Origin: Mesostigma viride
Lineage: Eukaryota > Streptophyta > Mesostigmatophyceae > Mesostigmatales > Mesostigmataceae
Direction of reading: 5' to 3'
DNA length: 64,000 nucleotides
Assembly: GCA_009746045.1 (NCBI GenBank)
Contig: RPFO01000253.1
Location: forward strand, 4,276,832 to 4,340,831
The position numbers were made by a program, and so were the translations under genes. Positions within the stretch are counted from its first letter, which is position 1, and the number at the start of each line of letters is the position of its first letter. This document shows, piece after piece, positions 19,384 through 63,353 of this stretch. The notes below the pieces were generated by a model, which saw only the letters and a program-made list of their open reading frames with translations, was not told where the DNA came from and did not search any database.

Positions 19384-19449
19384 CACGAGTTTAATTAATT
19401 AATTAATTAATTTAATGTACAAGGGCCACGGTCTAACTATTCTACACTA

Positions 19450-22525: not shown

Positions 22526-22589
22526 CTTGCATAATAGCCAGGGCTAGCTTGTATTCATTGGTAGTCTCTGCCGCCATGGCAGCCATGCC

Positions 22590-26300: not shown

Positions 26301-29300
26301 GTCCGCCCCTGTCGCCACGCTCGTGCTCGAAGTGCTGGTGCCCGCTTGGCGGCCCTCCCGGCTGCTGCTTCGGCGGCTACTCCCGCGGGAACCACCGTCG
26401 TCCGTAGCCTCCCCCAACCCCGCGGGCGTCAGCCTGAAACCATCCAGGGCCGGACGGGACTGGCCTCCTGCGCTAGTGGCGAACCCATTCCCTGCCCCCG
26501 TGGACACCGAGAGACCCGACTTGGTGACCACGCTCATGGGACCGTTCTTGGCCACACCACCGCCAGCCACGCTGCCGCCGCTGCCACCGGGCTTCAACGC
26601 CACCACGATCTCAGGGTCCCTGGGCGCGGCCCCAGGGTCGCCCCCCCCAAACCCGCCGCCCTCCCTGCCCTCCAGGGACCGGTCCTGCAGCGGTTGGCTA
26701 CCAGTAACAGTGCTCTGGTCACTCGTCGCCACGCTCACAGCGCTGGCCGAGACGCCTGCTTTGGATGAATCGCCGTTTGGGGTGCCTGAGGCGCCCGCAC
26801 CGAGGTCGCCAGTGGTTCCTGGGGTGAAATGACTGCTGGCAACGTCAACGTCACAGGTGGAACCGCCGCCTTGCAAGGCAGGCGGCTCCCCCATGAACCG
26901 CCCACAAGACTCTGCTTTGGCGTTGAACGGGATTTCGGCCAGAGCTTGGGCTTGGGCTCGTCCTTGGACCTCCGCCCGGGGTTGGGCTTGCGTTTGGGTA
27001 TTGGTCTCAGCTTTTGTCTGAGCATGGGGTTGGGCAGATGACCCGGTTGGAAGCGGTGTCGCAGAGTTGGACGGCGATGCTGCCTTCCGGGTGGGTGACC
27101 TGGCGGTGCCACCACCCGCAACTGCGGTGGAAGTCGACCCGCTCCCCTCCCCCTCCGGCTTGTTCCACCCGCCCCCCCCCTGCTGCAGCCCGTCCTTGTC
27201 GGTGAGCGTCACGGGGAAGATGTGTGCCGGCGGCCAGAAGGAAGGCGCGGCCGAGGAGGCCATGCCGACATCAGTCAGGTAGAAGTCATCGCCCTTGCAG
27301 GAGAGGCGGTTGCGGGTGGCAGGATCAGAGATGTCGTCGGGGGTGAGTGAGGCGAGGGGGCCAATCTCTCGACCCACGTGTTGCGAGCAGAAGAGGGTTA
27401 ACTTGTGCTTCACCGTGTCAAAGCCTGGGCGGGGAGGGAGGATCGTCGTGTTGTGTTGTGTTGTGTTGTGTTGTGTTGTGTTGTGTTGTGTTGTGTTGTG
27501 TTGTGTTGTGTTGTGTTGTGTTGTGTTGTGTTGTGTCGTGTCGTGTCGTGTCGTGTCGTGTCGTGTCGTGTCGTGTCCTGTCGTGTCGTGTCGTGTCGTG
27601 TCGTGTCGTGTCGTGTCGTGTCGTGTCGTGTCGTGTCGTGTCGTGTCGTGTCGTGTCGTGTCGTGTCGTGTTGTGTTGTGTTGTGTTGTGTTGTGTTGTG
27701 TTGTGTTGTGTTGTGTTGTGTTGTGTTGTGTTGTGTTGTGTTGTGTTGTGTTGTGTTGTGTTGTGTTGTGTTGTGTTGTGTCGTGTCGTGTCGTGTTGTG
27801 TTGTGTTGTGTTGAAAGCACGCACATATTGACCAGGCACGTATTCGCAACATGGGTACACGGCGGCCTGTGGCAGGGAAGGCGCATTCAAGGCAATTGCA
27901 CAGCATGAAATTAAAATGCGAGATGCGTCAACTGAACTATGATGTCGATACAGATTCAAAGATAAGGCCTTGAAGGCCTTGAAGCAGGAACGAACCACCC
28001 ATAAGAAATCAAAAGAGCAGCTATTGATTATGGATTCTCGTCCTCATCAAACATCACATTTTGCCGTCCCCAAGGAAGCTATTTGGCGTGAAGTAATAAG
28101 AGCTGCCCAGTCCCCCACAGACATTCCCCTTCAAAACAGACCGGTTATGTAACACGTCAGTAGGAAAAAATACCACTTCTGGCCCCCAAAGACCACCAGG
28201 TCCAATAATCCACCCTGTCCCACATCCGGCCCTATGTCAGCTCTCCATACCACCCGGCTGCACAATAAAAGCCGCCTCCCTACCTGTGAAGCACATTCCC
28301 CCCACCCCTCCTCACCCTTGGAAACAGGTGTGCCTCCCCTCTCTTCCTACATGTGACGCACGTGCGCCCCCCCCCCCCCCTCCCCTACCTGTGAAGCATG
28401 TGGGCCGCATGAGGTCGCCCAGCATGAGCGGTCGCCCCCCCGTGTGGAACCAGGAGGCGAGCAGGTCGCGCTTGGTGGCCACGTCGTAGTGGGGGCGCAG
28501 GAAGCGGGAGTTAAGGAAGCGGCGCGCCTGCGTTCACCCAGGTGGATGGGCAGGCAGGAAACGTAAATACAGGGGAATCGATCGATTGATTGAGCGATGC
28601 CAGTGGAGGAAGCGGCCCGCCTGCGACTTGCGAGGGCACCCACGTGTGTGCAGGAAATCCAATATTGGAGAATGAAAATCGAGCAACTCTAGTAGAGGGA
28701 AGCGGCCCGCTTGCGGAGACAGATGGGAGCGCAGGCAAGAGAAACATTCAAAAGCAAAAGGATGCCGGCCAGGCCGATATTTGAGGAAAGATATGGAATG
28801 ACCAAGCTGTACGATCGAGTAGTATGGCGCCACCAACCCAGATGCACATTCATGCAGGCAAAAGACACATTGACATAGAGTTACTCAATAGAGTTACTCA
28901 TGCCGATAGTAACGATGGCAATAGCACCAAGCGTACAGTTATATAAGCGCAAGAACGGAGGGGTCGGTCACGTTAGTTTCTAGCATAACAACACAACGAT
29001 TTCCAGCATAACAATCCCCCAGCATTAGCTTGTAGCATGGCAAAGGCAGGCGCGACCAGCCCACGCAACGCCCCCTGGATGCAACGGCCACGCATCCATA
29101 ATAACATGATAACAACACTTTACAGAAATAAACGCGGCAACACAACTGGCGCGCGAAATACACATATACATACACTGCAAACTTGAGCAACACTCCATAG
29201 GGAGGTAGGCATTAATACGTATGTAAATGCATGCTGACAGATGCAGGGCCAACGAGCTAGCATGCGAGCAAGCTGGCAGGCTAGACTTAAGCAGTGCTCG

Positions 29301-30823
29301 AAGTAAGCAGTGCTCAAGTGCTAGAGTCATGGAGGGCTAGTAGAGGGGTAAAGGGGAAGAGGGCTTGAGGGGTAGAGGGGTAGAGGGGTAGAGGGGTAGA
29401 GGGGTAGAGGGGTAGAGGGGTAGAGGGGTAGAGGGGTAGAGGGGTAGAGGGGTAGAGGGGTAGAGGGGTAGAGGGGTAGAGGGGTAGAGGGGTAGAGGGG
29501 TAGATGGGTAGAGGGGTAGAGGGGTAGAGGGGTAGAGGGGTAGAAGAGTAGAGGGGTAGAGGGGTAGAAGGGTAGAAGAGTAGAGGGGTAGAGGGGTAGA
29601 GGGGTAGAGAGGTAGAGGGGTAGAGGGGTAGAGGGGTAGAGGGGTAGAGGGCTACAGTGGTTGCTTCGCGAGGCAGCTGTAACAATAGCCGAAACCTGTC
29701 ATTGTGGAGGTGAGGCACAAGGCTGTACTCAGTGATGCTATCCACCACCCATGGCTGCAATCCCAATGGCAGCGGCAGATACAAGTAGGAGGTAGCGACA
29801 ACCGTCTGAGGTGGCAGTGGCATTGGCGGTGGCTGCAACCGTCGCAATGGCGCTGGGCAGTTGCTGATGGCGATGGCGTGATGGTAAAAGCATATGTGGA
29901 CAGGAGAAGGCCTGGAAGAGATGGGGATGGGGACAGTGCAACCCTCTGTGCCACCCTAGCCATGCACCAAATACAGAGGATATGCTACATATGACTAAGA
30001 ATATTATGGCAAATAAGATTGCGGACACAACACGTACAAGTACCCGTAAAACATGCATATGCAGTACAAGGCCAGAATACCATCCGAAGAATATAGTAAG
30101 GGGTAGCAAGCATATAAACCATGCACACCGCTATATATTGCAACCGCTACGTGGTCTTCAATAATTTTTTGAACACAGGCCGGTGTTTGCTGGAGGCGTA
30201 GGAGTTGACCGTCTGTACCACTCTAGCCAATCAGAAGGTACCTTCTTAAACATGGGCCGCGTGTTTGCTTCAAAAATCTTGACAATCTCCTCAATTGAAT
30301 ACCGCGTGCTGGGTCTACTTCCATCAATGCAGGCCACTGCCGTTCTGTTTTCACCAATATTTGCATCAGCTCCAACTGCGGCTTCCTTCTCAGCGGCAGA
30401 AGGTTCGGGAGGGAGCATCAGCAGGCAAGCGATGAGGCAGCCTACGCTTGTTCCCGCGACGTAGTCCACGTAATCCAGGAGGCGGGCATTTGCCCAGTTC
30501 GGATCACCTCTTTCCCTTATTTTTTCCTGAATCCTTTTCTCCATGTAAGCGAGCACCACCAGCGGGCAAATGCCACGGACTCCGCCGCCATCAATGCAAA
30601 CAATACGTAAATATTTTCCGGGGAAAATTCCTCTGGAAACGGTGTGCGACGAAGTCAGCGGCGGCACTGCAGTGCCATTATCACGTGCCGTGGACTCCGC
30701 CGGTGGTACTTGTATAGCAACGTGGCCATGGTTTTCCAGAAGAACAGAGGCAAGGTCTACTGCGTTTGCACCCCCGCGCACTTCAGTTGTGTCCTTGTCC
30801 ATCGACATATGCCGTGCGTTCAT
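23370..30823 (-). CDS. Patatin-like phospholipase (acyl hydrolase) with large low-complexity insertion
   Basis: Five exons on the minus strand: 30823-30242, 28527-28389, 27424-25771, 25139-25021 and 23560-23370 (TGA), 894 residues; every join is in phase. Patatin-family enzymes hydrolyse acyl chains of phospho- or galactolipids with a Ser-Asp dyad. Visible are the oxyanion loop D78-G-G-G-V-R-G, the nucleophile elbow G124-T-S126-V-G, the FLRPHYD and LGDLMRPTCF region, LTDVGMASSAAPSFWPP, the catalytic DGGVLVNNPS (Asp near residue 740) and LLSLGTGQEES, which joins cleanly to SMLPYDKVKRWGLRKW. The last exon (SLRVQCRNLEP through NVDRENLEGLKKLG) matches the family C-terminus. Between the FWPP and DGG motifs lie about 415 Gly/Ser/Thr/Ala-rich residues absent from usual patatins of about 400 residues. 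No signal peptide is visible, so it is probably cytosolic or membrane-associated. Introns are full of satellites. Confidence 0.85.
24340..24905. repeat. 52/54-bp minisatellite in last phospholipase intron
   Basis: Eleven tandem copies of a unit containing CTCATAACACGACGCAACGC and TGCGAGTGC. Copies start at 24344, 24396, 24448, 24500, 24554, 24608, 24662, 24716, 24770, 24824 and 24876. Units are 52 bp (GTGCGAAGA or GTGCAAAGA junction) or 54 bp (GTGCATAAAGA junction). It lies in the intron 23561-25020. Confidence 0.95.
27447..27813. repeat. Pentanucleotide satellite TTGTG / TCGTG in phospholipase intron
   Basis: About 73 uninterrupted 5-mers in blocks: TTGTG, then TCGTG (one TCCTG variant), then TTGTG, three TCGTG, then TTGTG. 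Read on the minus strand it lies just before the acceptor of exon 3 (exon starts at 27424). It is open in all frames and so creates spurious Cys/Val or Thr/Gln/His open frames. Confidence 0.95.
28281..28720 (-). repeat. Degenerate copies of phospholipase exon 2 junctions
   Basis: Donor side (+ strand letters): CTACCTGTGAAGCATGTG at the true junction (28385) is echoed at 28280 (CTACCTGTGAAGCACATT) and 28347 (CTACATGTGACGCACGTG). Acceptor side: AAGGAAGCGGCGCGCCTGCG at 28514 is echoed near 28612 and 28699 (GGAAGCGGCCCGCCTGCG and GGAAGCGGCCCGCTTGCG), period about 90-100. Confidence 0.75.
29345..29652. repeat. Octamer minisatellite TAGAGGGG in phospholipase intron 1
   Basis: About 38 copies of TAGAGGGG with few variants (TAGATGGG, TAGAAGAG, TAGAAGGG). 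The G-rich strand has regularly spaced GGGG runs and could form G-quadruplexes. It lies in the intron 28528-30241. Confidence 0.95.
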
Positions 30824-32313: not shown

Positions 32314-32349
32314 ATGGGTTTCCGGGAGAGGCCCCATTTCTCTGTCGGG

Positions 32350-35300
32350 ATGCGGAAGTTCCTGCTTCTCCTGGCCCTGACTTGTTGGCGGTTGGCGGTG
32401 GCCGCACCTGGTATGCGCATCCATCGGCGATGTCGACCTTCTTCTCGGCGTCTGCACCAATCTACTTCATGTCCATGCTGTCTTGGTTTCTAGGTGCCTT
32501 CGTGTGGTATGTTTTACGTTTGCAACGCCTCGACACATTTGCCGACGTGGTCGATTTCAAACAACCACAGAAAATGAATTGCCGCCGAGCGGGGAAATCT
32601 CTTCCTTTTTCAATAATCTGGATGCTGACGCTGACGGAGAAATCAAGGAAGATGAAGCCCGCAAAGTACGTAGTTCCAGAGAATTATTGTCTTTCATTCT
32701 CCGTGCCGTTTTTTCACGGTGTCCGTACTCGTTTAGCTTATCACATGCCTTGGCGGGCCCTATTATCTGATAAACCTGCCAGTCCTTTGCACGTTTCCAT
32801 TATGGTAACAGGAGGGATCCTTGCACAGAAGTTGCTACCACGAACGGGACCTGTATGTTCTGATTTTTTGAGTGAGAGTAATTGAAGGGTTTATGGCATT
32901 CCCGCCAGATCTGCTCTGCTCAGGGGTCTTAATGGAATAGCAGGCGTGTTATACCCATACACTTACTACAATGTTAACAGCATCGTGCTAGCGATGTCCT
33001 ACCTTGGGATGTCTGCAAGGCATTGCGGGATTAGATGTTAGCATAGTTTTGCTGTCAAACCAACTCCTGTTGGCGGGGATTTTTCCCGCCCGAATAGTTT
33101 GCCCTCCCAGTGCCGTCCTTCCCTCCACCCCTAAAGTATCCCATTGCACTTAAGGCCCATGGCGGGCTGCTGAGAATTTTTGTTGCCACGTGTCATGTTC
33201 TCTAACCCGCCAATGCAAGCCACAAACCCACCCATCCTATGATTCCCATCTACGCAACACCCCATCCCCGTCCATCAACCCCAACCCCGCGTGTACACCC
33301 TAGCCACCCACTAACTCCTGGGCCCTCGCCCAAACCCTCACCCGCACCCTCGCCCAAGCCCTCACCCGCACCCTCGCCCACACGCAGACCTGCACACCCA
33401 CCCCTTCCCCTCACCACCACCACACACGTATAGCTCCCCCATCCCCTCCTTTTCCCACTGTGTTCGCGCCAGTTTCTTTCGCCACTTGCGTGCACCACAT
33501 TCATGTGCCACTGTCATCCGCTTACCGCGATGATAATTCGGTCGGTACCTGAAAGAGTTATGTATCCACCCACCTGTCTCATTGTCTTCCCGCCATGTGC
33601 ATCCACTTCTGCTACACCATTTTCTTCCTACTGTCTTGCCCGGTACCTGGAACACTTTGCCATCGACCCACCTCTGTGTGTTATCGCCATGCTCATCCAC
33701 CACTGCAACACCTATTCTTCTCAGCCCTCAGTTCTCTTCCTTATCTCTTGCTTTATACCTTCAAAAGCGTTTAATCCACCAACCCTTTCTATTGTCCTTT
33801 GGCCATGCTCATCCACGACCGCTGCACCTGTCTTCTCATCTCTTTTTCTCCATGGCCCAGTACCTGCAAGGGTTTTAGGCGGCCAGGAGTTTGACACAGA
33901 GATTGGAGCGCAAGTGCTCACCACCTCCCTCCCTGCTCCCTCGCTTGGATGACCCATGGACTTGCCATCTCCCTTCGCTCCAGTACCTGCAAGAGTTCCT
34001 GGGCGGCAAGGAGTTTGACACGGACGCGGAGGTGCGCGCGGGCGTGGAGTCCATCTTCGCGCGCATGGACGCCAACCTGGGTGACAGCGTCACTCAGAAG
34101 GAGTTCATGGTACGCAGACGGGGCTCTCATTGGAGCACTTGGTTCGCAAACACTAGTTTAGGTTTATTTAGTCTGGTAGGTAGGGCTGTGGGCGACTCGG
34201 TCATGCAGCGGGAGTTCATGGTGCGCAGACGGGCAATAGGAGCTCTTTTTGCATAAATACTACAATAGTTTTATCTGAACTTGTAGGCAGGGCTTTGGGT
34301 GATCCATAACAGGGCTGTGGGCTGTGGGCGTCACACAGGCGGAGTTCATGGTTTGCAAATGATGCTCATTGTGTGCAATAGGTATTCATGGTGGGCGATA
34401 TGGGGTTCTGGTACTCGAAACGAGTTCATGGTTTGCAATTGGATTTTGCAGTGAAAGTTCATGGCATGATCATTACATGCAACACCGCACGTGCAACCGT
34501 GGGCAATATGAGTCCATGGCATGGCGATAGGCGTGGGTCCAGGCGCATGCGCCGCAAAGCCGTGCATGGGAGAAGATCGGATGATGTCTTGTTCAGGGGA
34601 AAGATGAGGGGACAGTTGCGGGAACAACCGTGAGAGGTAACCGGATGGAATAAAGGTGGGTGGGGAGAGGGCTTGTCCTACACACTACTTCCTTCGCTTC
34701 CCTCTCCCTCCCTGCCGCATGTCCCCCCCCCCCCCGGTTTACCCCCCCCTACGCCCCCTCTCACCTTCACCTTCCCCCCCTCCCCCCCTTTCACCCCGGC
34801 ACTTCCCTCCTTATCAACCCCCTCCCCTATACCCAACAACCCCTTCCCCGCAACTGACCCCCCCCCCAACCCTCCCCCAGTCCTTCCTGCAACTGCGCAC
34901 GAGCCCCCTCCTCTCCGTGGACGCGGTGGCCGACTGGGTGCACCACGGCGTGCGGCTGCCGCAGTACGCCGAGGCGTTCCGCTCCAACGCCGTCTCGCTG
35001 CTCGACTTCCCCGCGCTGGCCAACCACGAGCGGCTGGTGGAGGACCTGGGCGTGTCAAGCCGGCTGCACCGCGACCAGCTGTGCCGTGCGCTCAAGATGC
35101 AGGTGCTGGGGCTCGGAAAAGGTGTGTGGGCGCGGTTTTTTTAATTACAAGGCATGGGCCTGTGTGCTGGGGCTGGGATGGTGGGCGTGCTGCTTACTAG
35201 AAGGCATGGGGATGGGTGCTGGGGTTGGGAACAAGGTGGGCGGCAAGCCTGTTGCTAAGAGTGGCGTTGGCAGGTGCTGGGGCCTGGGGTAGTTGACTGG

Positions 35301-38300
35301 GAGAAAGTTTCTTATGAGTTGCAATGGGTGCAATTAGTGGAATCGGTGCGATGGTTGCGGTGGGTGCTGGGGCTCAGCAAAGGTGGGTGGGGAAGCGGTG
35401 ACTAGGTAGTTGACCTTCTTGGTGAGTGCGGAGGGTTAGCAACAGGTGGGCGGTTGCATCTTTTCTTACAAGGCATCTCGCCGGCTGCTGGGGCTCAGAT
35501 ATTGTGGCTGGCGGCTTAATCACTAGGAGGTGGTCGCGTGGGTGCTTGCGCTCGCTAAAATTGTGCGTCGCCTATTTTCACTAGGTAACATTCGCACCAC
35601 GCTGAAGTACATAACTGGGCGCGATGGTGGACATAGGTGGGTTCGAGAGCTAGGGAAGTTGTTTCTTTTTTTTGTCCTCGTAAGTGGGTGGCATCCGATA
35701 TCCTTGGCCCAAGCCGGCCTAGCAGGGCGTGATGCACGTGGGTAACACCCGTTCAGCGTGCGACTTGATTCCAATGAAGCTGTCATGACTCAAGTATTCC
35801 GCCTGTGCCCTTCAAGCCCCCGTCTCTCACACATCTATGCTTTTGAGTGAGTTCTCTGGCTGTGAAGCTGCCATCGTGCTGTTCCCTTTCAGTGCTGCAG
35901 AGGTAGTCATATGGTGTCATAGGATGGAGGAGCGCGTTAGACAGATGTGATTGTTCATGCTGGTAATGTTAATCCTGACGAGCCGAACCTTGTTGTGACC
36001 CTGCAAGACTAGCCTCTCATTAGCTACGCACGTTCTCTGCAAGAGCAACAGCCACCTAGTCATAATGGCGCTTTCTGGATGTGTACCAATGGCTGTCCTG
36101 CCTCATGTCCCTTTCTCTCTCCCAATACTACGATAACTTTTGCACTTTGACTGCTTGTGCTTCCGGCCATAACGTTGGTTGATGGCTACCACATGGCGGT
36201 GGGGTTTGCAACTCCCTTTTTTTGGCGAGCAGTCCCTGGCGAGCCAAAAGGGTTGCTGTGCAACGCAACAAGTGGCGGCGTCTCGCTGCAGTGGGACCTG
36301 CCGGACAGGATGGGCGTGCCTCCCCTCCACAAGTTCACGGTTGAAGTAAGTGTCATAGTAGACAATGCTGGTAAGGGACCTTTTCGATTAGCAAAGCTCT
36401 AGCTCAATGTGTAACACCATAACACACTCCTTCCGTCACCTCGTAGCCTGTGATTGTACTCCCAGGGTCTGTCTGCAATGCGCAGGCAATGGGAAGAGCT
36501 TGGCTTGTTCAGCTTGTCTTTGGAGGAAAGCCAGGGACTTATTTAGCTGTCCGATTTCATCATAGCATGCCTCACAGTACCGTGGAGTAAGCGGGGGATG
36601 GTGTTGTCTGCCTTTTGTTTTAGTCTCTGGAATGCAAGTTTGGGACATGCTGGGGTTGCCATACCGAGATCTTGGGGCTAGTAGATGGCAGCAACTTGCG
36701 ATGAACCCCCATGTCAGGAACTGTATCGTTTATTGCAGCTTTATGATTGTTGGTACCTCAACACTGATCTCTTTGCCAAGGCCGAGTATCATTTTCTGCC
36801 GGCAAAGGCATGGGCTGAAGGCGCAACATTCTCATGCTGCTCCAGAAGTAAACCCTCCCCCACAGCCCACACCCCACACCCCACCCACACCAACACTGGT
36901 TGTTCTGTTAGTCTCATACGCTCATGGCCTCACCCGTTGTTGACCATTTTCCGTTCTCTCGCCCTTACCTCGTATCATTTCACCCTTTTATTCTCCCTCC
37001 TCTTTTCTCCTGCTGTACTCCACAATCCCCCAGAGGAAAGACGACGCGTTTGGGCCATGGAAGATGATTCTGCCGAACGTCAAGGACCCCTACGTGGTGG
37101 ACTGCAAGGGCGTGGAGCCAGGGCACGAGTACCAGTACCGGTACGGGTGACAGAAGTTGTCATTTGCCGTCGCTTCACTCCTGGTATTGTGACATAGATT
37201 GGTATACCTAGCTGGCCATTGGTATTGCACTCCCGTGGCATCGCCTTCGTATGCATGCGCACAAGTAGTTGCTCCTTCCCTTTCTCACCGATACATGTAC
37301 CTGCCAATTTGCATACCCCATTTCCTAGCTCATGCTTGATGATACAATTTGTAATAATTTTCTAGTGTGTTTTTGTACTATGCGCCACAATGCGCGTGCT
37401 CTGGCAGTGTCACATCCTGGGGCATCTACGGCGGCAGCGTGCCAGCCGCTGTCACCTGCCGCGCCTGGCCGCCGTGCGACGACCTCTCCCCCGTCTCCCA
37501 CGGACCCTGCATGAACCCGTGTGCCAGCTTGACGCGCTCGGTGCCCGCCTTGCAGCTGCCGGCCCCTCAACAGCAGCCGGCATTACCCCTGCAGGCAGAG
37601 CCGGCTGGGGGGAATGCCTCGCTGCCCAAGAGGTGAGCGGTGGTAGAGACCTGGACACCCACAAGCTGGGATATTGTCTTGCAAAGCTACTGTTTGTAGC
37701 TGCTGTTTGTGGGCCATAGGCTTCTGAAAGTAACTAGTTGGAGTGAAGTTTAGCCACCTGCACACCAGTGGCCCGGCGAATCTAGAAGGAGCAAAGCTAG
37801 AGGAGGGAGCGAAGCTAGAAGAGCGGGACTTGCAACTACTAGCTGAGTGGTTGCCTTGCGAAGTGAAGGTTGCCAAGAAGTAAACGGCTATAGGGAGAGG
37901 AAACATAACCAAAAGACTGGTTGGGTATACAGCTATAGCCCTATTCAAAGCCGGGTCGCCATCAATGCCAATGCAAAGCAAAAGGGCTGGCCGTGGTTGC
38001 TTGCTGCTGGCATGCACAGACTCATGAAGGTCGATAGCCCAGAAGTAACACCACAACACACGACGCCACACCTTACCACAACCATAACCACAGCCTCGAC
38101 CAATTGCGTAACTATAACCACCAACGACCATGCACCTCACCACGCACTGCCATTATTGCTGCCATCACGGCCACATAATTGTGCTGCCACGGCACACTTC
38201 TTTTGACACCTCTCTTGACAATCTCTTTGCCACTTACTCCCCCCCCCTCGTGAACAGAGGCTGGCTCCTGTCGGCCATGCTGGGGCCGGACGCCACCACG

Positions 38301-41300
38301 TGGAGCCTGTGGCGTGCCTTCCTGTCGTTCCAGTCGGCGATGCTCACTCTCGGCCTCATCCTGCGTGGATCCGCGATTGTGCGCGCGTTTGCGGGTGCCG
38401 CATGGACCGGCATGCACTCTGCGGCGATGGGAAACGGGGGGCATAAGACGCCGACAAGGAGCCGTTCACGCGCACCGTCGGTGTCCTCGCACAGTGGGCG
38501 CCGGGAGAGGTGCGTGGTGGTTTTTCTTTTGTTGTCGTCCCCTGCCCTTGCAGCTTTTGTTGTCGGCTTCTTTCATATAACCTCCTTTCATAACATGTGA
38601 GCATCTCAATGGATTGTCTTAGTTCTTTTTCCTTGTTTTTAGCTATCATCTGTGAGATCCATGAGTTGTTTCCATACCCACTCCAGCCTGGGTCTCTTCT
38701 GGCTAAGTATTGTAGTAATGGTACTGGTAGAGTAATGTTGCAAGCGCTCACTATTGTGCTTCGAGTTTCTGCTGGGCCCACTTCTAATATCAGCCACCTA
38801 GCGGTTGTCTATTTTTTTTTTGCGCAGTGCCTTGATACCGATCCCATCCCAGCGGCAATGTGATCATCACACACACCCCACTCACAATACTATACTATAG
38901 TGACCCCCCACCCCACCCCACCCCACCCCACCCCACCCCACCCCACCCCACCCCACCCCACCCCACCCCACCCCACCCCACCCCACCCCCCACCCCACCC
39001 CACCCCACCCCACCCCACCCACCCCACCCCACCCCATTCCACCCCACCCCACCCCACCCCACCCCCCACCCCACCCCACCCCACCCCACCCCCCCACCCC
39101 ACCCCACCCCACCCCACCCCACCCCACCCCACCCCACCCCACCCCACCCACCCCACCCCACCCACCCCACCCCACCCCACCCCACCCCACCCCACCCCAC
39201 CCCACCCCACCCCACCCCACCCACCCAAATGCACACACGTACACACAACCCCCTTTTCCTTGCCCCTATCGCAGCTACGACGGACCCTTCGGCGGCTCCC
39301 TGCACCGCCGCTCGCGCTCCAATGACACACTCCCCTCGTTCGCAAGTGAGAGCGACCTCACAGTGAACCTGGGCGACATGGCATCCGGCCGCGTGCTCTC
39401 CCGCTGGGGCACTCTGCGCGCGGCCCTCCGCATGCTCATGCTGATGAGGGGCCACGTGCCGGAAGACCCGACGCCGGGGCATGGGTGGGGGAACGGAGCA
39501 GGTGGCGGGGGTGGAGTGGCGGCTGGGGGTGCCAAGATGCCCCCGCTCATGGAGCATGACGAGAAGGGGCATGAAGGAAGGGGCGGGGGTCGGGCGGGCG
39601 CATCTGGGCCAGACGGTAACGGCAACATGGTCCGCATTCCGAGCAGCAAGAGCTTCAAGTAAGTTTGGGGGGTGGGAAGGCAAGGGTCATGTGTCAGGCT
39701 GGGGGGCGTGGGGACAGACTAAGGTATCTCAGAAGGTGGGAGGGGTATGAGAGCGTCCAGTAGGCGTAGGGGATGGGGGACAATGATTGAGTCTTTCGTA
39801 ATGTTTGAGGGGGAAAACAAGGTCCAGCATGCATAGGTGACGGGGAACAGTAGCTGAGCATATCGTAAGGGGTTAGCGGGACAAGGCCATTGACTTCTTT
39901 GTATACTATTCTCACATATTTCCAGCACCTCGTTTCCGTCCCCTTGCCTGGCCCCCGTTTGGCTTGCGCCCCCCCCTGCTTGCCCTAACTGGTGCTTGGT
40001 ATTCATTGATTGTAATAAGCTAATTGCGTGCTTGCCCTAACTCTTGCTGTCCTTTTCTTGCGTCCCTTTCCCCTTGCGTGGCCGTCCCTTGGCTTGCCCT
40101 TCTCCTTGCCCCCTCCCCTCGCCACCACCCTCCCCCTCGCCACCCCCCTCCCCCTCCCCTCCCCTGCTTGCCCCTACCCTCCTGAACCCTCCCTCCCCTC
40201 CCTGTCCTCTTTGCCCTCCCCCCCTTGCCCTCCCGTTGGCTGCCCTCGCCTCACGGCCCCACAGCTCGGTCAAGTCCTCCTCCCTGTCCATGCTGAGCGA
40301 GGTGTCCCTCGGGTTGGACCCTGACTTGGAGCACGAGCTGGAGATGAGGCATCCGGGGGGTTACAACAACAGCAACAACGGGCCGATGGGGCTCATGGGC
40401 AGCATGATGATGGGCACGCTGGGGGAGGCGGAGCAGGGGAGGGAGGCAGATGTTGGTAACGACCGGCAGCTGCGCTTGCGGTCTTCCAAGCACGACAAGT
40501 ACAGCCGCTACCGGTACGTGGGCACGCAGTTATGGGATAGAGCTTGTGCGAGTGCGGGTGGTTGCAGACCCGAGTGTAGCCGGTACCGGTACGTGGGCGC
40601 GCAGTAGTGTGGTATAGCTGGTGCAGGTGCATGTGGTTGCAGATGCAAGTGTTGCCAGTACCGGTACGCAGGCACGCATGTCAGGGGTATAGCTGGTGCA
40701 GGTACGTGTGGTTGGAGAAGATGTAGAACGGGCGCACACCTAATCTGCATCGGATGGCCCACATCCACCGATTGGATTATATGAACGGGACGTCGGTGTA
40801 CAAGCATATCGTGACAGACGACAGTGGAATTCTGCGCTGGTTGTCTCATTCTCATTGATGTCGTGACAGACAAGAGCAGTATGTATGAACAAACGCTGCC
40901 GGCTGTTGATGCTGTTGTGGCACGAGGCCAGAGGCCAGCGTTGAACTAAACTAGGCTTTTGCGCATGTGCCCAACGAAGAGCTGCATGTATTTGCTAGGG
41001 CTGACCAACCTTGCCTGATGGGCCCCCGTTTGTCCATCCCCACTGTCTGCCCCATCCACCTCCTCCCCCCCCCTTTCCCCTTTGCCTCCTCCCCCATCGC
41101 AATCAAAAAACAACGCTAATAACTACTCTGCGCAGGTGTAAGGTGGATGGCTGCAAGGCGCGGTTTGACCGCTGGTACAAGGTCCAGGACTGGGAGATGG
41201 TATTCCGCAAGCACTTCTGCAAGGAGTGCCAGTGGGTCTTCTGCTCCAAGCACACACGCATCTCGCCCCACGGGTCCACGGGCCGCTGCGGACTCGACAG

Positions 41301-43423: not shown

Positions 43424-46349
43424 TCAAGGCGAGCCGTCGCCGCTTGCCGCGCCGCCCTGGTCCAGCGCCAGGTAGGGGTTGTCCCCGGCTGGCATTATCT
43501 TGTAGCCGGTCACGATATAGAAGAGCAGCGTGGCAACCTCGCCTGCCAGGTCGCCCGCCCAGATGTACTCGTACGGCAGCGTGGACTTGAGCAAGTACAC
43601 GATGATGCGCGTGAAGTAGATGTAGCTCACCTGTGGGGGGGGGATCAAACGCACGGATAAATGTGAGGCATAAACAGGAGGGGACGGATATGAGGGTATA
43701 GCGTCGAGGCAAGCATCAAATATTTAACGTGAGAGTGGTGCGTAGGAGTACGAAACATGACGGAAACGTACGAAGGGGGCCGTAGCTCACCTGCCGGGAA
43801 TAACGGCAGAACGAATGGGAACGGGGGACATTATCGGAAGCAACACCAGCGGGGGAGTGAAAAAGGAGCGTGCAGGAAAGGAGTGGGCTAGGGGTCCCGG
43901 GGCATGGGTTTGGGTGCCATACAGGGTTGACTAGAAATGTGGAGGCCAACCGCATTATGACAGATCCTGCCGTCTGATGCGAAAGCAGCAGGACGGGCTC
44001 CACTCACCAGCACGACACCTCCCACCTCCACACACACCCCACACACACTCACCACCATGACGTAGAACTGCCGGAAGAGCGTGAGCTTTGTGATGTTGAG
44101 CGAGGCCTTGCCGTCCGTGTGGGACGCGTCGCGCAGGTTCTTGATGGACCAGATGATTGGGAAGAGGATCGCGCAGCAGCAGATGACGTCCACCATGTGG
44201 AAAAGGTCGCGCCACGTGAACCACGCGCGCGAGGAGGGGCCCGTCTCGTCCAGGACCACGGTCGCCATGTTCGCAAACACCTGCGGAATGGGCATGTAGC
44301 AGCCATGACAAGCAACGTCAAGGATTCACATTACTTTAGTATAGTGGCAGGGTGGAATGTTCGCCAACACCTGCAGGGGGGGGAAGTCATGCCAAGCTTG
44401 CATATCATATTAAAAAAAAAAAAAATCTACCCACCCTACTGGCACCTGTGCATATTCTATGCTCGTGCTTGTGCTTGCAACCCCAGGGCGCTCCGCCGCT
44501 CACCTGCACTATAAAGTTAGAAACCAGCCGCATTGAAGGGGTTGCCTTGTGCGGCTGTCGCAGCGGATAATGACCTCAAGCATCGCCACCCGTTTGCTTG
44601 GTCTGCTTGGTATGGTTTCCCCAATGGTTTGATTGCTATGCTTAGCTTGGTTCCCTCACATGCACACCTAGCCATGCGACGATGAAAACGAGACATTTTT
44701 TCTCCTTTACTGTACACCCCCCCGCAGAAATGATTATCCTGCCGGTGCACCAGGTGCTCCTGCTCATGCTTTTGTGCTTGCCGCCCTCACGTGAACCTGC
44801 AGCAGGATGACGGCCTCCAGCATATGCCTGAGCAACTTTTTCTTCATCTGATCTATTCTAGGCACTAGATCTTATCTATTCTGCTCTGGTATAGCGACCG
44901 CAAGCACCTTTTTCTTCACCTGATCTATTCTAGGCACTTGATCTCATCTATTCTGCTCTGGTATAGCGACCACAAGCACCTTTTTCTTCGGTACCATACC
45001 TGCCTTCTCCTGTACCACACAAAACCTGCCAGCACACTGGGTCATGCTTACACTTTGGGCACCACAAATAGCTGCAGCGGGATGATGACCTGCGCCCATA
45101 ACAGGCACCTTGTTCTTCCCATTGCCCATTCTCGATTACATCCATGAGACAACCAGCGCGGGCCAGACAACTGGAGATTTCGGTTACACACTCATGCTCT
45201 CGCGAAACCAAGTTGCGCTCACCTGCAGCGGGATGATGACCATCAGCACCTTCTTCTCCTTCTGCGCGAGGAAGGGCTTGAGGAACGACCAGCCTGTGCC
45301 GATGAGCACGATCACCACGAACAGCGTGACCCCTCGGAAGAAGGAGAAGACGTAGTAGACCACGTTCCACCCGTTGGGGTCCCCCTGGTACTTGATCAGC
45401 TGCTGCATGAGCGCGAGCGAAAGTAGCGTCAAGGCCTTGAGGACAACCAGCACGCCCATGAGCACGTGGATCTTGAGCGTACCCGTGCTGCGACGCTCAT
45501 AGAGGAGGTACCCCCAGACGGCCCCAGCGACCACGTAGCACAGGAAGCTGCAGAAGAAGATCAGGGGGAGAGGGGACTCGCCCGCCGAGAGGTAATCCTT
45601 CTCGCCCGAGGGTCCCTCGTTGTACAGAGCGATGCGTGCGTGGAAGGAGACCAAGGCGCGCGGTGCGTCCTGGCAGTTGGTGTAGAAGAGGCTGTACTCG
45701 TCAAACTCGTCGCGCTTGAGCCGGTACGTGTACGTGAAGCTGCCGTCGAAGGAGCGCTGCGCCTCCACGTCGGCCAGGGTGAAGAGCTTCTTGATCCCCG
45801 TGTTCAGGAGCGGGCACGTGCCGTCGTTCAGGTCCATCTCCAGCTGTGCCTCGGCCTCGGCGCTCGTGATGAAGAAGCCGATCTTCTTCTTGGACACGGG
45901 CGCGTTGCTGCTGCTGGGCACGTAGACCTCGTCTGGGGGGCGGGAGAGGGGGCGCAATCAGGAGCGGGAGGCGGGCGTCAGAGGGGGACCGGGGGGGGGG
46001 GGGGGGGGGGGAGATAGCCAGACGGAAAGGAAATTGAGGGAAAGTGCCAAATTTTCGCCGTGAACGCGCCATGCACAAGGCCTCGGTCATGGTCACTAGC
46101 CGGTGCAATAGAAACGTGGCGGAACATGGAAAATGAAGGTCAGTAAGTCAACGCACCATCCGTGATGGTCACCTCGATGACTCCCTCGCCAAGCCCGCCG
46201 AAGCCAAAGGTGTCAAAGAGAATAATGGCACGATCATCGCTCTTAATTTTGGGATGCGAAACTTTACCCAGAGCGTAACCCCCAAAGCTAGCCACAACGA
46301 GCACGCAGAAAAGAACTGACGTCAAGCTCTTCGCCATCATGGCTGGCAT
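43424..46349 (-). CDS. GOST-family seven-transmembrane protein (GPR107/GPR108-like)
   Basis: Four exons on the minus strand: 46349-46157, 45932-45223, 44280-44053 and 43630-43424 (TGA), 445 residues, all in phase. The start could also be the ATG at 46340. A signal peptide (SLTSVLFCVLVVASFGGYALG) is followed by a lumenal domain (IILFDTFGFGGLGEGVIEV; NTGIKKLFTLADVEAQRSFD; a conserved YSLFYTNC). Seven hydrophobic helices follow: IFFCSFLCYVVAGAVWGYLL; VLMGVLVVLKALTLLSLAL; VVYYVFSFFRGVTLFVVIVL; VLMVIIPLQ joined to VFANMATVVL; MVDVICCCAILFPIIWSI; YVMV joined to VSYIYFTRIIVYLL; GEVATLLFYIVTGY. The IPLQ-V-x-A-N and YIYFTRI signatures at the exon joins are those of GPR107/108 and the plant lung-seven-transmembrane family. 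By family knowledge it acts in Golgi/endosomal trafficking. Confidence 0.9.
43780..43800 (-). repeat. Echo of the last-exon acceptor of the GOST gene
   Basis: GTAGCTCACCTGCCGGG (43782, + strand letters) repeats GTAGCTCACCTGTGGGG of the true acceptor and exon start at 43622, about 160 bases upstream in transcript direction. Confidence 0.6.
44340..45240 (-). repeat. Echoes of GOST exon 2 end/donor and exon 3 acceptor in intron 2
   Basis: True donor side (+ letters) at 45221: ACCTGCAGCGGGATGATGAC then CATCAGCACCTTCTTCTC. Copies at 45069 (AGCTGCAGCGGGATGATGAC), 44795 (ACCTGCAGCAGGATGACGGC) and 44564 (TCGCAGCGGATAATGACC). The tail with CACCTTTTTCTTC and TGATCTATTCTAGGCAC is repeated at 44835, 44905 and 44977. 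The exon 3 acceptor side (GTTCGCAAACACCTGCGG, 44270) is echoed at 44359 (GTTCGCCAACACCTGCAG). Confidence 0.75.
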
Positions 46350-47538: not shown

Positions 47539-58320
<10,782 letters not shown>

Positions 58321-58920: not shown

Positions 58921-58924
58921 GACT

Positions 58925-59600
58925 GCAGGGCATGAGTAAGAAAGTATGTACTTGCGTATCACGGAGTACTATGTTTATTTCATTGGAAAAATAATTGCCC
59001 GAAAGTATTAAACAAACAGACAAATATCGTCTGCATCATGCCCCGCCGATTCCTGAGTGGCAGCACAGCTACCGTATTATGCTATACAAAAACAAAGGTT
59101 CCCCTGACGACCCCGCCAACTACCGAGGAGTCTGCATCCAGAGCGCCGCACTCAAGTTGTTCATGCGCATGATCCTCAACCGCCTTTGTTCTGCTCTCGA
59201 CCGTCACCTAGGGGAAAGTCAAATGTGCTTTCATCTCGGGCGCAACACCGTCATGGCCGGCCATCTTCGTCGCGCGCCGCCTCTTCGAGGAAATCTCTCC
59301 TGCAACCTGGTGAGTTTCCCGCCATCCTGATCTTCGTCGACTTCATCAAGGCTTTTGAATCTGTCCTCTGGGACGCTCTATCGGGCTGTCCTTGCTCGCG
59401 CTCGCATCCCCACTCCCCTGATTACCGTCGTCCGCACGCTGTATGAGGGGTCGACCACTTAAGTGCGCACTCAACACGGCTCTACCCCGCCATGTCCACT
59501 GCAGACCGGTGTCTGGCAGGCATAATGGTTGCGTCTTGTCGCCGTACCTGTTTATTATTGTAGTGGATTATGTTATGCGCCAGGCACGTGCTCGCCGTCT
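58925..59600 (+). mobile_element. LINE reverse-transcriptase fragment (palm start)
   Basis: From 59050 shifting frames read YRIMLYKNKGSPDDPANYRG, then VCIQSAALKLFMRMILNRLC, a GRNTV segment, and FVDFIKAFES-x-LWDAL (about 59333-59380), which is palm motif A with its catalytic Asp, then a VWQ-G and LSPYLFIIVVDYVM-like segment at 59510-59580. This is a non-LTR reverse transcriptase with several frameshifts and no 3' half. Its first 110 bases match 20560-20665. Confidence 0.75.
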
Positions 59601-59849
59601 AGTGTAGCACATGTCCATGCCGAGTCTATCACGAAAAGTCCACGGAAAGGGCGCAGACATAGGGGGGAAGATCTTCACGGCTATACAAAGGCTATAAACA
59701 AGTCTCGAGTGGACACGTGTGTAGTACTCCTACACACACAGATCTCGAATGATTTATCTAGTACCAAATCCGAAAGGCTTGCATCACTCCCCGGAAAGGA
59801 GAACTTTTGCGGATGACGGTAGGTGTCAGTTGGCGATGCCTCAGGACCA

Positions 59850-59935
59850 GGAGACGTCCGTCCTATAGTCAGCAAAAGTTGGTGCGATCGAGAGGTCCCC
59901 AGTTCGATTCCGGCCTGGATTCATTTGCAGATCGC
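59850..59935 (+). other. tRNA-like remnant (possible SINE head)
   Basis: GTTGGTGCGATCGAGAGGTC followed by CCCAGTTCGATTCCGG resembles the D-loop remnant, variable region and T-arm (box B, GGTTCGANTCC with one mismatch) of a tRNA. The anticodon arm is missing or deleted, so it is not a functional tRNA. Confidence 0.3.
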
Positions 59936-59989
59936 GTTTTCCGCGGACCGGCACTGAACGCAAATGGTTTTCACCTTTGCGGCGTGCCA

Positions 59990-60310
59990 AATCAGAATAC
60001 AAAGGCTAGGGAATGGCTTCTCAGCAGAGAGTGACTCTCTGCATAGGCAGAGCGTGGCTAAATTCTTAATGCATCATCCATGGGGAGTCCCATTATAGAT
60101 AGGCAGAGCGTGGCTGAATTCGTAAGGCATCATCCATGGGGGCCATTATGGGCGCACATGCGCGTAGGCCACGTGCTAGGCTAAGCCTTACTTATCTACA
60201 CTACTGCTGTATTCCCTAGAGTGAGGTTGCTGGCCGGGTGGCAGGGGGTGCGCCTGCCAGGGCTTGTGGTCGACGTGGATGACGTCCCCCCTCCAGTATC
60301 CCGGCCAAAA
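59990..60310. repeat. Copies of the 14.3-14.5 kb element piece and ORF1 3' fragment
   Basis: CTAGGGAATGGCTTCTCAGC, TGGCTAAATTCTTAATGCA, CCATGGGGGCCATTATGGGC and GCTAGGCTAAGCCT match 14335-14520. From 60220 the sequence GCCAGGGCTTGTGGTCGACG matches the minus-strand ORF1 C-terminus fragments at 16750 and 19525. Internal duplication of the GGCAGAGCGTGGCT segment. Confidence 0.75.
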
Positions 60311-60400
60311 GAAAGTCGCCTCCAAACATATATCTCGCTAGAGGCATGTGCCTCTTACTTAATTTCAAGGTACCTCTTAATTAATCTTGGCCCGCGCCCT

Positions 60401-60686
60401 CTGACCATTTGACCATTTGACCATTTGACCATTTGACCATTTGACCATTTGACCATTTGACCATTTGACCATTTGACCATTTGACCATTTGACCATTTGA
60501 CCATTTGACCATTTGACCATTTGACCATTTGACCATTTGACCATTTGACCATTTGACCATTTGACCATTTGACCATTTGACCATTTGACCATTTGACCAT
60601 TTGACCATTTGACCATTTGACCATTTGACCATTTGACCATTTGACCATTTGACCATTTGACCATTTGACCATTTGACCATTTGAAC
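60401..60686. repeat. Octamer satellite TTTGACCA
   Basis: About 35 essentially perfect tandem copies, ending in a single TTTGAACC variant. It lies in intergenic sequence after the transposon debris. Confidence 0.98.
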
Positions 60687-61621
60687 CTTTGACAAAAAGA
60701 GCCAATTTTACCACTACTAATTAATTTCTTTATGCACACCAAACTGCATCAAGTGAGCTGAAGTCCTCAGGGTTCAAACGAATATGGGATGGGATGGATG
60801 GATGTAGTTATATCTACTTCCTAGTTACAGGGTTACAGGTCAGTGCAATGCATGCCAGAAAACTGGATTATGCATGATAAATGCATGCTGTAGGCGACTA
60901 CTCCTGAACGCATGGCGATCCAACGTCCTGGAGGCATTAGTAGGTATGCACGATATTGTGACATTCAGGATGAAGATCTCTCTTTTATCTTTAAGTTGTA
61001 AACAAAGAGAGTATCGCAAAATATGCCCGGCCTTAATATTCATGTTCATACACTTAAATTTACTCGCACACTCCTCATAATTACTATATTGGAGAGTGAC
61101 CCCAACCCGGGGGTCACCCTCACGAAGCATCATCGATAAATACATGCATGCATGTTCGATGGACTAACTACTATGAATACATCAAGAGATACTACAACAT
61201 GCACAGCTATTGCTGGCTGCAGCTTGCCATGCTTCAATCAGCATCCTTCCACAATTACATCAGCACGTACAGATTGCAATGTCGCCACAGGAGCTTCTGC
61301 CCGCCCATACCTGTACTAAACACACTTACACGGCGATGCCATTTGTACGGCACCTTATACACAAGCATGCGCTTACAAGATATTGCCATGCAGGTAACAG
61401 ATATTACATTCTGCGGCAACAGACCCGATACCTTCTGCATGTCTATCTTACAACAAACCTGCTGCGCTTCAACCATTGGCGATGTCTGCTAGACGACGCC
61501 TCAGCCAGATCAACAACGACAGTACCACCACATTAACCTAAACTGGCTGAACTCAACTCCGTTGCACGAGGGTGGCCCCCCTTTCTTTGGGGTCGGCTTG
61601 GAATCCGGCGTAGAACCTGAC
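60687..61621. other. Intergenic region, no gene seen
   Basis: AT-rich. Short open frames at 61148-61536 overlap in two frames and have no recognisable domain. CCCGGGGGTCACCC-type sequence near 61106-61120. Confidence 0.35.
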
Positions 61622-63353
61622 CTAGGCCGGAGCAGATCCTTTAGGAGCCGGCAGGGCCTGCGTCGGTTTGCTGTCCTCATCGGAGCCGCCTTCCTTAGGC
61701 TTCTTGTTGGCCTTCTGCTGCCAGGGCCATATCCAGGAGACCTTTGGTGTCTTCGGGGACTTGGCTCCATCGCTGGCTTCGTCCCCGGCTCGTGCTGCCT
61801 GCTCGGCGGCGGCGGCCGCGCGTGCGGCCTCCTCCACTTCCTTCCCTCGGATCACCGTAATCACCTGCGGCAGCTTCACGGGCTTCTTGAGCTCGCTGCT
61901 CACCCACCGACCGAGACCCTGCGCTGCGACCGTCACCTGCGCCATGCCAGCCAGATGCACGGACAGGAGAGGCAGATAATGGAGCAGGCAAATGCCATTA
62001 ACTTCTGTTCGGACACAGGCCACAAAGGCAGGCACGCAACGTAACACAACTACACAGGGTGCTGATGAATACAGAAGGTCATGCTTGCAGTCCTAGCTCA
62101 CTGGCAACAAATGCAAATTGCCCAGTTGTCAACACCATCATAACTACAGGCCTTCTATCTGTCTGCCCGCCCCCTTCCATTCGCACCCTACACTATCTCC
62201 TAGCCTCGCGACGTAAAACTGGTTCCTGGCGTAAATCTTCCTCCTTACAAATCCTCTTCATATGCCTCGTCATTGAAAAGATTTACCGTCTTCTCCATCC
62301 AACGCTCTCTCGTAATCCACTACGCTCCCGCCCTTCCACTGCCACTGGCTACACCACATCCTGACGGTCCACATCCACTCACCAATGTCTGGCAAGGATC
62401 CCCTCTTTGGAGGGCCCCTTACCCTCACCGGCAGGACCAGCTGCATGTTGTTAACCACCACAGCTCTTCTCTCTTTGAACGCACTTCTTCCTCCCTAACA
62501 AGACACTTCTCCCCGACACACATCTCCCCCCTTACACGTTTCACCAGCTCCTTGCCGTTCTTGGCGGAGCGCAGGTCGTCCACGAGCGCCCCCAGCGCGG
62601 TGCCCAGCGTGATGGGCCGCATCATCGCGTGCAGCATGACCAGCAGCAGCGTCCACAGCAGAGCGCTGATGAGCGCCGCAATGGAGCGCTCGAAGAGGAT
62701 GCCATTGGAGCAGACGACGAGAGCCAGGCCGCCGCCCAGCGCCTGCAGGGAGAACAATGACAGAGCGCGTGCAGGGCACTACACCATAAGCTGGTCCCAC
62801 TAATGATGGTCTTGGTAGATCACGAGCGCCAGGCCGCCGCCCAGCGCATGTCGGTAGCGATGTTATGATATAAATGCAGGCCATTAGAGTACAAGCTCGT
62901 GACGTTGACATGCAGCAAGCTTGGTAGTTGCGTGATAAGCACAAAGGCGCGGCCTGGCGCCTGTTGCAGAACAAGTCATAGTGAAATGCAGGACGGTACA
63001 AGGTTGTGACATTAAACAATCATTAACAAGCGATACTCCTTTACAAATGACATCGGCCGCAGCCCAGGGCCTCCAAGATAATGTCAACGTAGTATAATTA
63101 CAAAACATGACAGTAATTAGTGATACAAAAAAGCCCCCTACAGCTACGTGCCCAGAGCCAAGCAAGCGGCTAGGGCCAAAACCATGAGCATGAGGGTGTG
63201 AAGATGCCCCATCTCACATCAGACTGAGCAAGGAGGTAACCCACACACAAGCACACCCATCGAGCAACCCACCTGCAAAGCGCGGATAGCCACGGTACGG
63301 TCAACCCCGGCCACGCGTGTCTCGTTGAAGTAAAAGGGCGGCCGCTTCAGCCT
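61622..63353 (-). CDS. Hypothetical membrane protein, 3' part (5' end not found)
   Basis: Three phase-0 exons on the minus strand: 63353-63273, 62742-62536 and 61936-61622 (TAG), giving the last 200 residues. I do not recognise the family. Sequence order: RLKRPPFYFNETRVAGVDRT then VAIRALQ; ALGGGLALVVCSNG; a strong helix AALISALLWTLLLVMLHAMM; RPITLGTALGALVDDLRSAK; VTVAAQGLGRWVSSELKKPV then KLPQVITVIRG; an Ala-rich helix; and a Lys/Pro-rich tail (VSWIWPWQQKANKKPKE). Two hydrophobic segments and a basic cytosol-like tail suggest an integral membrane protein. Upstream exons must lie beyond 63353 and probably beyond the window. Intron 62743-63272 contains echoes of the middle exon's acceptor. Confidence 0.6.
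62720..63085 (-). repeat. Echoes of the middle-exon acceptor in the 3' membrane-protein gene
   Basis: True (+ letters): GAGCCAGGCCGCCGCCCAGC then GCCTGCAGGG at 62721. Copies at 62826 (GCGCCAGGCCGCCGCCCAGC then GCATGTCGG; about 20 identical bases), 62946 (GGCGCGGCCTGGCGCCTGTT then GCAG) and 63053 (CGGCCGCAGCCCAGGGCCTC). The preceding CATT(A/G)GAG segment is also repeated at 62882. Confidence 0.75.

Follow-up and report, generated by a model that had tools for sequence, protein, structure and literature searches.

Why do introns in one stretch of the Mesostigma viride genome carry decayed copies of the exon edges and splice sites that border them? Duplication inside genes can copy splice sites. 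In an initial annotation of the window (the 64,000 nucleotides analysed from contig RPFO01000253.1), ladders of such copies were reported at positions 28281-63085, and it was proposed that introns lengthen by serial duplication seeded at exon-intron borders. The question was addressed in a sample of 264 kb, the window plus 200 kb of the same genome, in which 166 introns were modelled. The genome has 33 matches to the chlorophyll a/b-binding family, exon pieces rather than genes, and one translated match is LHCII-like, as in a photosynthetic lineage whose antennae are of the chlorophyll a/b type. The gene models are predictions of a home-made two-strand gene finder; retraining the finder on all the sequence drifted into simple repeats, so the earlier model with simple-repeat masking was retained. 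Gene calls are supported by Pfam matches to GOST_TM and CAND6-7_N, SAM, and Exostosin_GT47 and EGF. PRA1 (PF03208) matches the gene first described as a 3' membrane protein, and the Patatin match (PF01734) in the phospholipase gene spans two exon groups that were joined in the modelling. The Pfam search reported no EF-hand domain in the gene called EF-SAM, where EF is the name given by the initial annotation.

Junction copies were sought at 194 junctions from 19 predicted genes on two contigs. The strict test required a local score of at least 34, a match reaching the junction and at least 5 exon bp. The looser test used the 99th percentile of a background in which each junction was compared with other introns, simple repeats being masked. 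The background of a first echo test was open to the intron of the junction under test, which blunted its p values, and its interior windows were drawn from introns unfiltered for exon support; later tests superseded it.

The fossil copies of exon edges in introns are real, as confirmed by these tests. By the strict test, 26/194 junctions have a copy of their exon edge and splice site in direct orientation within the intron, and reverse-complemented introns passed through the same filters gave 1/194. The copies are head-to-tail and direct, not inverted, and the original description of their orientation holds. It had also placed them in five genes at more than ten junctions. All five genes have copies, at 14 of the 45 junctions inside 28281-63085 (patatin 1/2, EF-SAM 5/17, GOST 2/5, exostosin 5/18 and PRA1 1/3), compared with 12/149 outside (Fisher p 2.5e-4). 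This range is thus a rich part of the sample, which is to be expected of a range chosen where ladders had been noticed. Described as window-wide, the ladders extend beyond the window and thinly to another contig (3/66 junctions there). Each ladder matches one edge, donor or acceptor. In the strict set, introns 34110, 44281, 52627 and 94608, four in all, have a ladder at both ends, each copying its own edge. Weak members of the strict set include the 34880 acceptor, whose copies lie in a C-rich tract, and the 16493 donor, with an identity of 0.64 and a copy 673 bp off. Ladders of two to seven copies had been described. Multi-copy ladders do exist (eight with two copies, three with three and one with six), but 14 of the 26 strict ladders have one detectable copy, and the maximum in the looser test inside 28281-63085 was four copies per ladder (GOST). 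The fall of identity with distance is weaker than stated, the nearest copy exceeding the farthest in 11/17 ladders with several copies (one-sided sign test, p 0.17).

In the patatin-like phospholipase gene (28508..28740, minus strand), copies of the acceptor and exon start lie at ~28621 and ~28711, upstream of the exon beginning at 28527; two are above the 99th percentile of the background and one is strict. The EF-SAM gene, on the plus strand, has a decayed array of ~110-bp units at 33530..34030, the last unit overlapping the exon start at 33984. Two copies, at 33859 and 33545, were found by program, the nearest being strict, and those at 33640 and 33750 were seen by eye only. At 34076..34446 the exon end and donor at 34109/34110 are followed by copies at 34221, 34350 and 34433, three in the looser test and two strict. 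The SAM-domain exon (SAM Pfam match) ends at the donor 35121/35122, and this edge is copied at ~35237, ~35293 and ~35383 (35095..35400, plus strand), with three strict copies, the first and third also in the looser test. A 75-bp array of three units straddles an exon end at 40496..40718 on the plus strand (TRF, 80% matches, and copy tests), and the exact donor position, 40606 in the model, is uncertain. The 40607 donor is a weak strict member: the array starts inside the exon, and the unit used in the model is probably its second.

In the GOST gene (GOST_TM, minus strand), the exon end and donor at 45223/45222 have copies at 45071, 44952, 44880 and 44796 (44796..45250), four in the looser test and two strict. 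This ladder is intermingled with a 72-bp array of 2.2 units at 44831-44989. An acceptor and exon-start copy lies at ~44372 (44257..44390, minus strand; looser and strict tests). The exostosin ladders are all on the plus strand and were found by both tests. A 20-bp array of 3.8 units (TRF 49844-49919) runs from the exon end (49846) at 49836..49919 with CTG|GTGAGC or a variant in each unit. The exon end and donor at 51773, in a gene with an Exostosin domain, are copied at 51841 (26/26 aligned bases identical) and 51902 (51745..51918), and a further donor copy is found at 52670 (52612..52684). Acceptor and exon-start copies lie at 53520, 53416 and 53308 upstream of the exon at 53621 (53290..53655), and another at ~55721 (55700..55890). 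The PRA1-family gene (PRA1 PF03208; 62695..63085, minus strand) has acceptor and exon-start copies at 62850 and 63071, both in the looser test and the first strict. A young case is found in a WD40 gene, where six copies spaced exactly 75 bp apart come after the exon end and donor, the last of them truncated, with older decayed copies beyond (local 93360-93840, about 4370191-4370671 on C667 of the genome).

Are these ladders peculiar to junctions? Decayed local tandem arrays are present in 30/67 introns and make up ~10% of intron sequence compared with 3% of intergenic sequence; among 102 intergenic pieces of 600 bp, 12 contain arrays. Longer introns carry more local duplications (Spearman 0.38, p 0.0017, 65 introns). 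Interior repeats are still found in 15/51 introns that have no junction copy, and the interior repeat share is 12.6% in introns with a junction copy versus 5.9% in those without. Part of the similarity in intron interiors comes from the junction ladders themselves. At the 26 junctions the mean identity of the copies exceeds shuffled controls to ~+70-80 bp on the intron side, which indicates that the whole unit is repeated, as for contiguous tandem units, and not the exon edge alone. Whole-unit repetition is also seen in the TRF arrays at 40496-40718 and 49844-49919 and in the WD40 75-bp array.

Could the copies be something other than local duplications? Donor and acceptor consensus sequences recur, and the introns are G-rich and C-rich, so that chance matches of the splice consensus in biased composition have to be considered. 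The background from other introns with simple repeats masked, the single hit among reverse-complemented introns and the low scores of windows deep inside exons (0-3% at acceptors, 0-1.5% at donors) contradict chance for the copy set as a whole and make it very improbable as the general explanation, though chance may account for individual weak members. Introner elements have affected large numbers of introns in certain algal genomes, and copies at many junctions would also be expected of a dispersed mobile element or introner inserting near splice sites. However, each junction matches its own intron above the level of the same junction against other introns, and a 400-bp stretch of one EF-SAM ladder, the one ladder tried, gave a single match, itself, in the 440 Mb genome when very common words were skipped. 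Such an origin is extremely improbable.

It had been proposed that the ladders are decoy splice sites. Selection on the copies as decoy, alternative or recursive splice sites, or as alternative exons, would fit the 36/45 copies that keep GT/GC or AG and the offsets divisible by three (nearest copy 14/26, p 0.025; best copy 15/26, p 0.009). Retention was scored in 35 copies of donors, of which 7 come from the intron of the young WD40 array, and in 22 of acceptors; the copied GT is retained at 0.82/0.88 and AG at 0.81/0.95. For exon-derived positions retention is mostly 0.8-0.9, with a range of 0.60-0.93 in donor copies and 0.52-0.95 in acceptor copies. The remaining positions of intron origin fall below this at donors (0.44-0.76) and, for the most part, at acceptors (0.42-0.95). 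The copied sites are thus kept no better than the neighbouring exon-derived bases with which they decay, and no sign of a decoy role was seen. An open in-frame extension would arise from 4/45 copies, and each copy has a single edge and hence no whole exon. The excess of offsets divisible by three loses significance at a looser threshold (16/39, p 0.20), and arrays away from junctions have 17/40 and 8/20; it is a lead only. Functional copies are quite improbable.

Is duplication anchored at exon-intron borders, or at a breakpoint hotspot just inside exon edges? Local self-similarity involves ~4-15% of windows throughout introns and 10/90 acceptor junctions, and the window profile has no acceptor peak. 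At donor junctions it reaches 17/87 compared with ~10% inside introns; donors alone exceed the intron interior, ~2x in the window profile and ~4x in the cruder first echo test. Exon windows at least 45 bp inside the exon are self-similar in 0-3% of cases at acceptors, and those from 60 bp in, in 0-1.5% at donors. Of all sources, an exon edge is the most readily recognised, since exons are conserved and divergence affects a single side of a junction copy. At three score thresholds the junction:interior ratio comes to 1.24, 1.06 and 0.81 (bootstrap range of the middle value, 0.54-2.07), and a uniform neutral simulation gives 1.19-1.42 and reproduces the junction profile. Inside 28281-63085 the ratio is 2.30 versus 0.63 outside. 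Thirteen arrays touch an intron end versus 5.0 by random placement, but the uniform simulation predicts 1.64-1.94 times 5.0, and 13 is not clearly above its 9.7 (Poisson p 0.18); outside the range 5 touching arrays are seen versus 2.57 by random placement (p 0.555 against the uniform simulation). Border seeding was tried by window profile, by junction:interior ratio and by random array placement, and the overall excess sits in the range picked for it; we do not call it refuted. The larger interior repeat share of introns with a junction copy is in its favour, and the repeats in introns lacking such copies and in intergenic pieces are against it.

Also in favour of anchoring is the short exon part of the copies, mostly confined to the last 10-50 bp (median 23.5 bp, at most 50 bp in 24/26, for a unit of ~95 bp). 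In uniform simulations 44-51% of overhangs are > 50 bp, and the exon overhang rejects a uniform phase (KS p 3.5e-6 to 5.7e-4). The short exon part can be explained by either selection or anchoring. When overhangs are capped at 40-50 bp, the simulation agrees with those observed (KS p 0.18-0.54), yet capped simulations place touching arrays at 0.59-0.74 times random placement, ~3-4 compared with 13 observed, and outside the range at ~1.5 compared with 5 (p 0.019). Selection by itself thus does not account for the two measures together. Border anchoring is on balance unlikely. It is also possible, if doubtful, that fresh junction-crossing duplications are judged by the spliceosome and the reading frame, the survivors taking at most ~45-50 bp of exon and, in part, having a length divisible by three; a weaker form of this reading has a breakpoint hotspot just inside exon edges. 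If it were true, exon edges would be the points from which introns grow outward, each added unit passing through a short exonic phase, and the fossil copies would be a record of the amount of exon that suffices to win a splice-site contest.

The reading we prefer, with a probability of about 0.64, is ordinary local tandem duplication whose positions have no tie, or a weak one, to splice sites, with selection on splicing as the filter. Introns would accumulate local tandem duplications with units of ~40-150 bp, at times amplified to several copies. When a unit spans a junction by chance, the outermost real splice site would stay in use; the exon would then be unchanged, and the extra copy would become intron and decay neutrally. 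Repeated events may build a ladder, and the short overhang may reflect selection against copies taking so much exon that they compete in splicing. Direct copies occur in contiguous units, arrays lie in interiors and at junctions, and copied splice sites decay neutrally. The direct orientation, the contiguous units and the young WD40 array favour tandem duplication; repetitive interiors, junctions no richer than interiors outside 28281-63085 and the simulation fit favour uniform placement; the decay of copied GT and AG like exon-derived positions favours neutral fossils. The overhang that rejects a uniform phase, the shortfall of touching arrays in capped simulations, the donor excess and the ladder-derived interior similarity count against it. 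The proposal that introns lengthen by border-seeded serial duplication survives in part: serial local tandem duplications are present and junction-straddling ones leave splice-site copies, but no overall excess at borders was seen (1.06 against the simulated 1.19-1.42), though donors alone run higher.

Exon-edge copies are natural experiments on splice-site choice, with a second donor or acceptor in native context, and the surviving ones show what splicing tolerated. A title by Zhuo et al. (2007) reportedly ties human introns to tandem arrays. A literature search that covered few subscription journals gave, among the matches listed, none on serial splice-junction copies lengthening existing introns. 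Intron growth is often attributed to transposable elements, for example in a grapevine paper (PMC3058033). With ~10% of intron sequence in local arrays, ~3x the intergenic share, local duplication makes a measurable contribution within the sample. Unlike introner elements, which are dispersed, the copies here are local. In the tandem genomic duplication model of intron gain (Rogers 1989, as cited; PMC4974935, PMC3629103; Drosophila, PMC2891723), local tandem duplication likewise yields extra splice sites. The cases in these papers create a new intron, whereas here an existing intron apparently lengthens and the exon stays as before. The potato RdRp duplication crosses an intron-exon boundary (PMC4974935), an 83-bp intron-internal duplication that leaves gene structure unchanged is mentioned in the same paper without detailed description, and in fission yeast the cases consist of 24-nt arrays with multiple copies (PMC3629103). 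Intronic minisatellites and tandem arrays, many of which are found in the window, have the same head-to-tail units of tens of bp, young and decayed. The ladders do not differ from them in kind; some arrays here begin in an exon and thus include the splice site.

Decayed copies of exon-intron junctions lie in the introns of all five genes (patatin-like phospholipase, EF-SAM, GOST, exostosin and PRA1) for which the initial annotation had claimed them, with at least one positive junction per gene and 14 of 45 junctions positive within window 28281-63085. The query in this strict test, at most 110 bp of the exon edge with 25 bp of adjoining intron, was compared with up to 1 kb of the same intron, and a copy had to reach the junction. 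Elsewhere 12 of 149 junctions were positive, giving 26/194 overall (gene bootstrap 7-20%), as against 1/194 when the introns were reverse-complemented. A looser test with a background for each junction found copies at 39/216 (26/106 donors and 13/110 acceptors). Clear cases are an EF-SAM exon end with its copies (34076-34446), a repeated exostosin exon end (51812-51857) and an EF-SAM acceptor copy (33846-33906). The claim that identity falls with distance from the real junction did not prove reliable, as 11 of 17 ladders followed it (p 0.17).

The sample consisted of the window (C667:4276832-4340831) and 200 kb of the same genome, namely 40 kb on either side and three 40-kb stretches of a second contig (C1), from an assembly of 440 Mb in 2243 contigs. 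Gene models came from a simple two-strand finder whose training used the first 184 kb; applied to all 264 kb with simple-repeat masking, it predicted 166 introns (median 626 bp) that are GT-AG by construction. The Pfam domains GOST_TM, SAM, Exostosin_GT47, EGF, PRA1 and Patatin back the earlier gene calls, and the genome encodes chlorophyll a/b-binding proteins. A single predicted gene with DUF1350 and WD40 domains (C667 local 69568-99431, L006-L009) may be two genes fused by the gene finder. In C1:100001-140000 (L010-L013) two predicted genes of opposite orientation (local 10971-24135 minus and 35905-38107 plus) share, by eye, long near-identical protein stretches and look kinase-like.

Averaged over the 26 junctions, the exon match of the copies exceeds the shuffled level over ~30-40 bp and the intron-side match does so out to ~+70-80 bp; the median offset is 94.5 bp. 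The repeated element is therefore a contiguous unit of ~95 bp in which exon sequence is the minor component. In a comparison of 35 copies of donors and 22 of acceptors, retention of the GT and AG was similar to that of exon-derived bases and higher than that of most other intron-derived bases. This is the pattern predicted for copies that decay freely while conservation holds the exon and its real splice site. Use of the copied site would give an open in-frame extension in 4/45 cases. An early stage of a ladder is shown by a young array at a WD40-gene donor beyond the window (C667 ~4370191-4370671, L008), where the real exon end and donor precede six copies spaced 75 bp apart; each carries ~21 bp of exon end, the last is cut short, and decayed older copies follow. 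On visual inspection, two third-codon differences from the exon are common to the six, meaning either that a single founder was amplified or that the exon has altered since.

Intron windows carry two-sided local repeats more often (13.2%, n=2957) than intergenic windows do (5.6%, n=2800; permutation p 0.004), and exon windows carry them at 2.6% (n=1771). Arrays cover 9.2% of intron-interior and 3.4% of intergenic 600-bp pieces. Transposon dilution of intergenic DNA could contribute to this gap. The share of intron windows with two-sided repeats varies by region; its extremes are 0/499 on the first stretch of C1 and 31% (n=185) on the second. The window also holds long micro-/minisatellite tracts, several of them within predicted introns: GTGTT (27448-27813), GTAGAGGG (29340-29651), CCCCA (38906-39226), CT and C-rich (48500-48885), CT (50285-50404), CAGGG (53806-54185) and TGACCATT (60402-60693). 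Young minisatellites lie at 51038-51485 (50 bp x 9, 99% matches) and 24322-24907 (54 bp x 11, 96% matches), and a candidate decayed reverse-transcriptase fragment of a non-LTR retrotransposon was noted by eye at ~59021-59600.

It had been suggested that introns grow by duplication seeded at exon-intron borders. A sliding 45-base test for local direct repeats in introns, junctions, exons and intergenic DNA found them in ~4-15% of windows throughout introns and 0-3% deeper in exons. Donors (17/87) were about twofold over intron interiors but acceptors (10/90) were not raised; intergenic DNA gave 15/440. A cruder first test had shown a bigger gap (donors 14.1%, n=78; acceptors 9.1%, n=77; intron interior 3.4%, n=148; intergenic 6.2%, n=48). 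A uniform simulation, with randomly placed duplications, conserved exons and neutral decay, has a similar profile: the highest of its rates put 0.13-0.14 at the junction, 0.07-0.135 in the interior and 0.01 at a point 90 bp inside the exon. With identical windows the junction:interior ratio was 1.24, 1.06 (0.54-2.07) and 0.81 at three thresholds, 1.06 being the middle one, compared with 1.19-1.42 in uniform simulations and 0.66-0.78 when exon overhang was capped at 50 bp. Arrays touched intron ends 13 times versus 5.0 by random placement; the uniform simulation gives 1.64-1.94 times random, or 8.2-9.7 (13 vs 9.7, Poisson p 0.18). The ratio was 2.30 within 28281-63085 and 0.63 elsewhere, and intron-end touches were 8 versus 2.47 random within and 5 versus 2.57 elsewhere. 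Because the border effect peaks in the stretch that caught the earlier reader's eye, it is attributed mainly to ascertainment, aided by the exon edge being more readily recognised than any other source. On the other hand, interior repeats reach 12.6% in introns with a junction copy (n=14) and 5.9% in those without (n=51), so the ladders themselves account for some of the interior signal; interior matches are still present in 15/51 introns without a junction copy.

The uniform simulation does not account for the exon overhang, with a median of 23.5 bp at the 26 junctions. It exceeds 50 bp at 2/26 (0/14 within 28281-63085, 2/12 elsewhere); simulations run with different decay settings place 44-51% above this length (KS p 3.5e-6 to 5.7e-4). 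A cap at 40-50 bp matches the overhang distribution (KS p 0.18-0.54) but predicts intron-end arrays at 0.59-0.74 times random, rarer than observed (p 4e-5 overall for junction arrays, 0.019 outside 28281-63085). Junction units with a short overhang may therefore be somewhat enriched. Copy offsets are divisible by three in 14/26 ladders (p 0.025), a result that depends on threshold (16/39 at the loosest, p 0.20), and a similar tendency is seen in non-junction arrays (17/40 and 8/20). Both this and the short-overhang enrichment are leads.

The papers listed by a literature search, with most subscription journals outside it, include no account of junction copies lengthening existing introns. The origin of new introns from tandem duplication is a published model, described for single cases (PMC4974935, PMC3629103, PMC2891723, PMC2809761). 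It involves the same kind of mutation as the M. viride ladders. The ladders differ from those single cases in number and in their probable outcome, which would be the lengthening of an existing intron rather than the gain of a new one.
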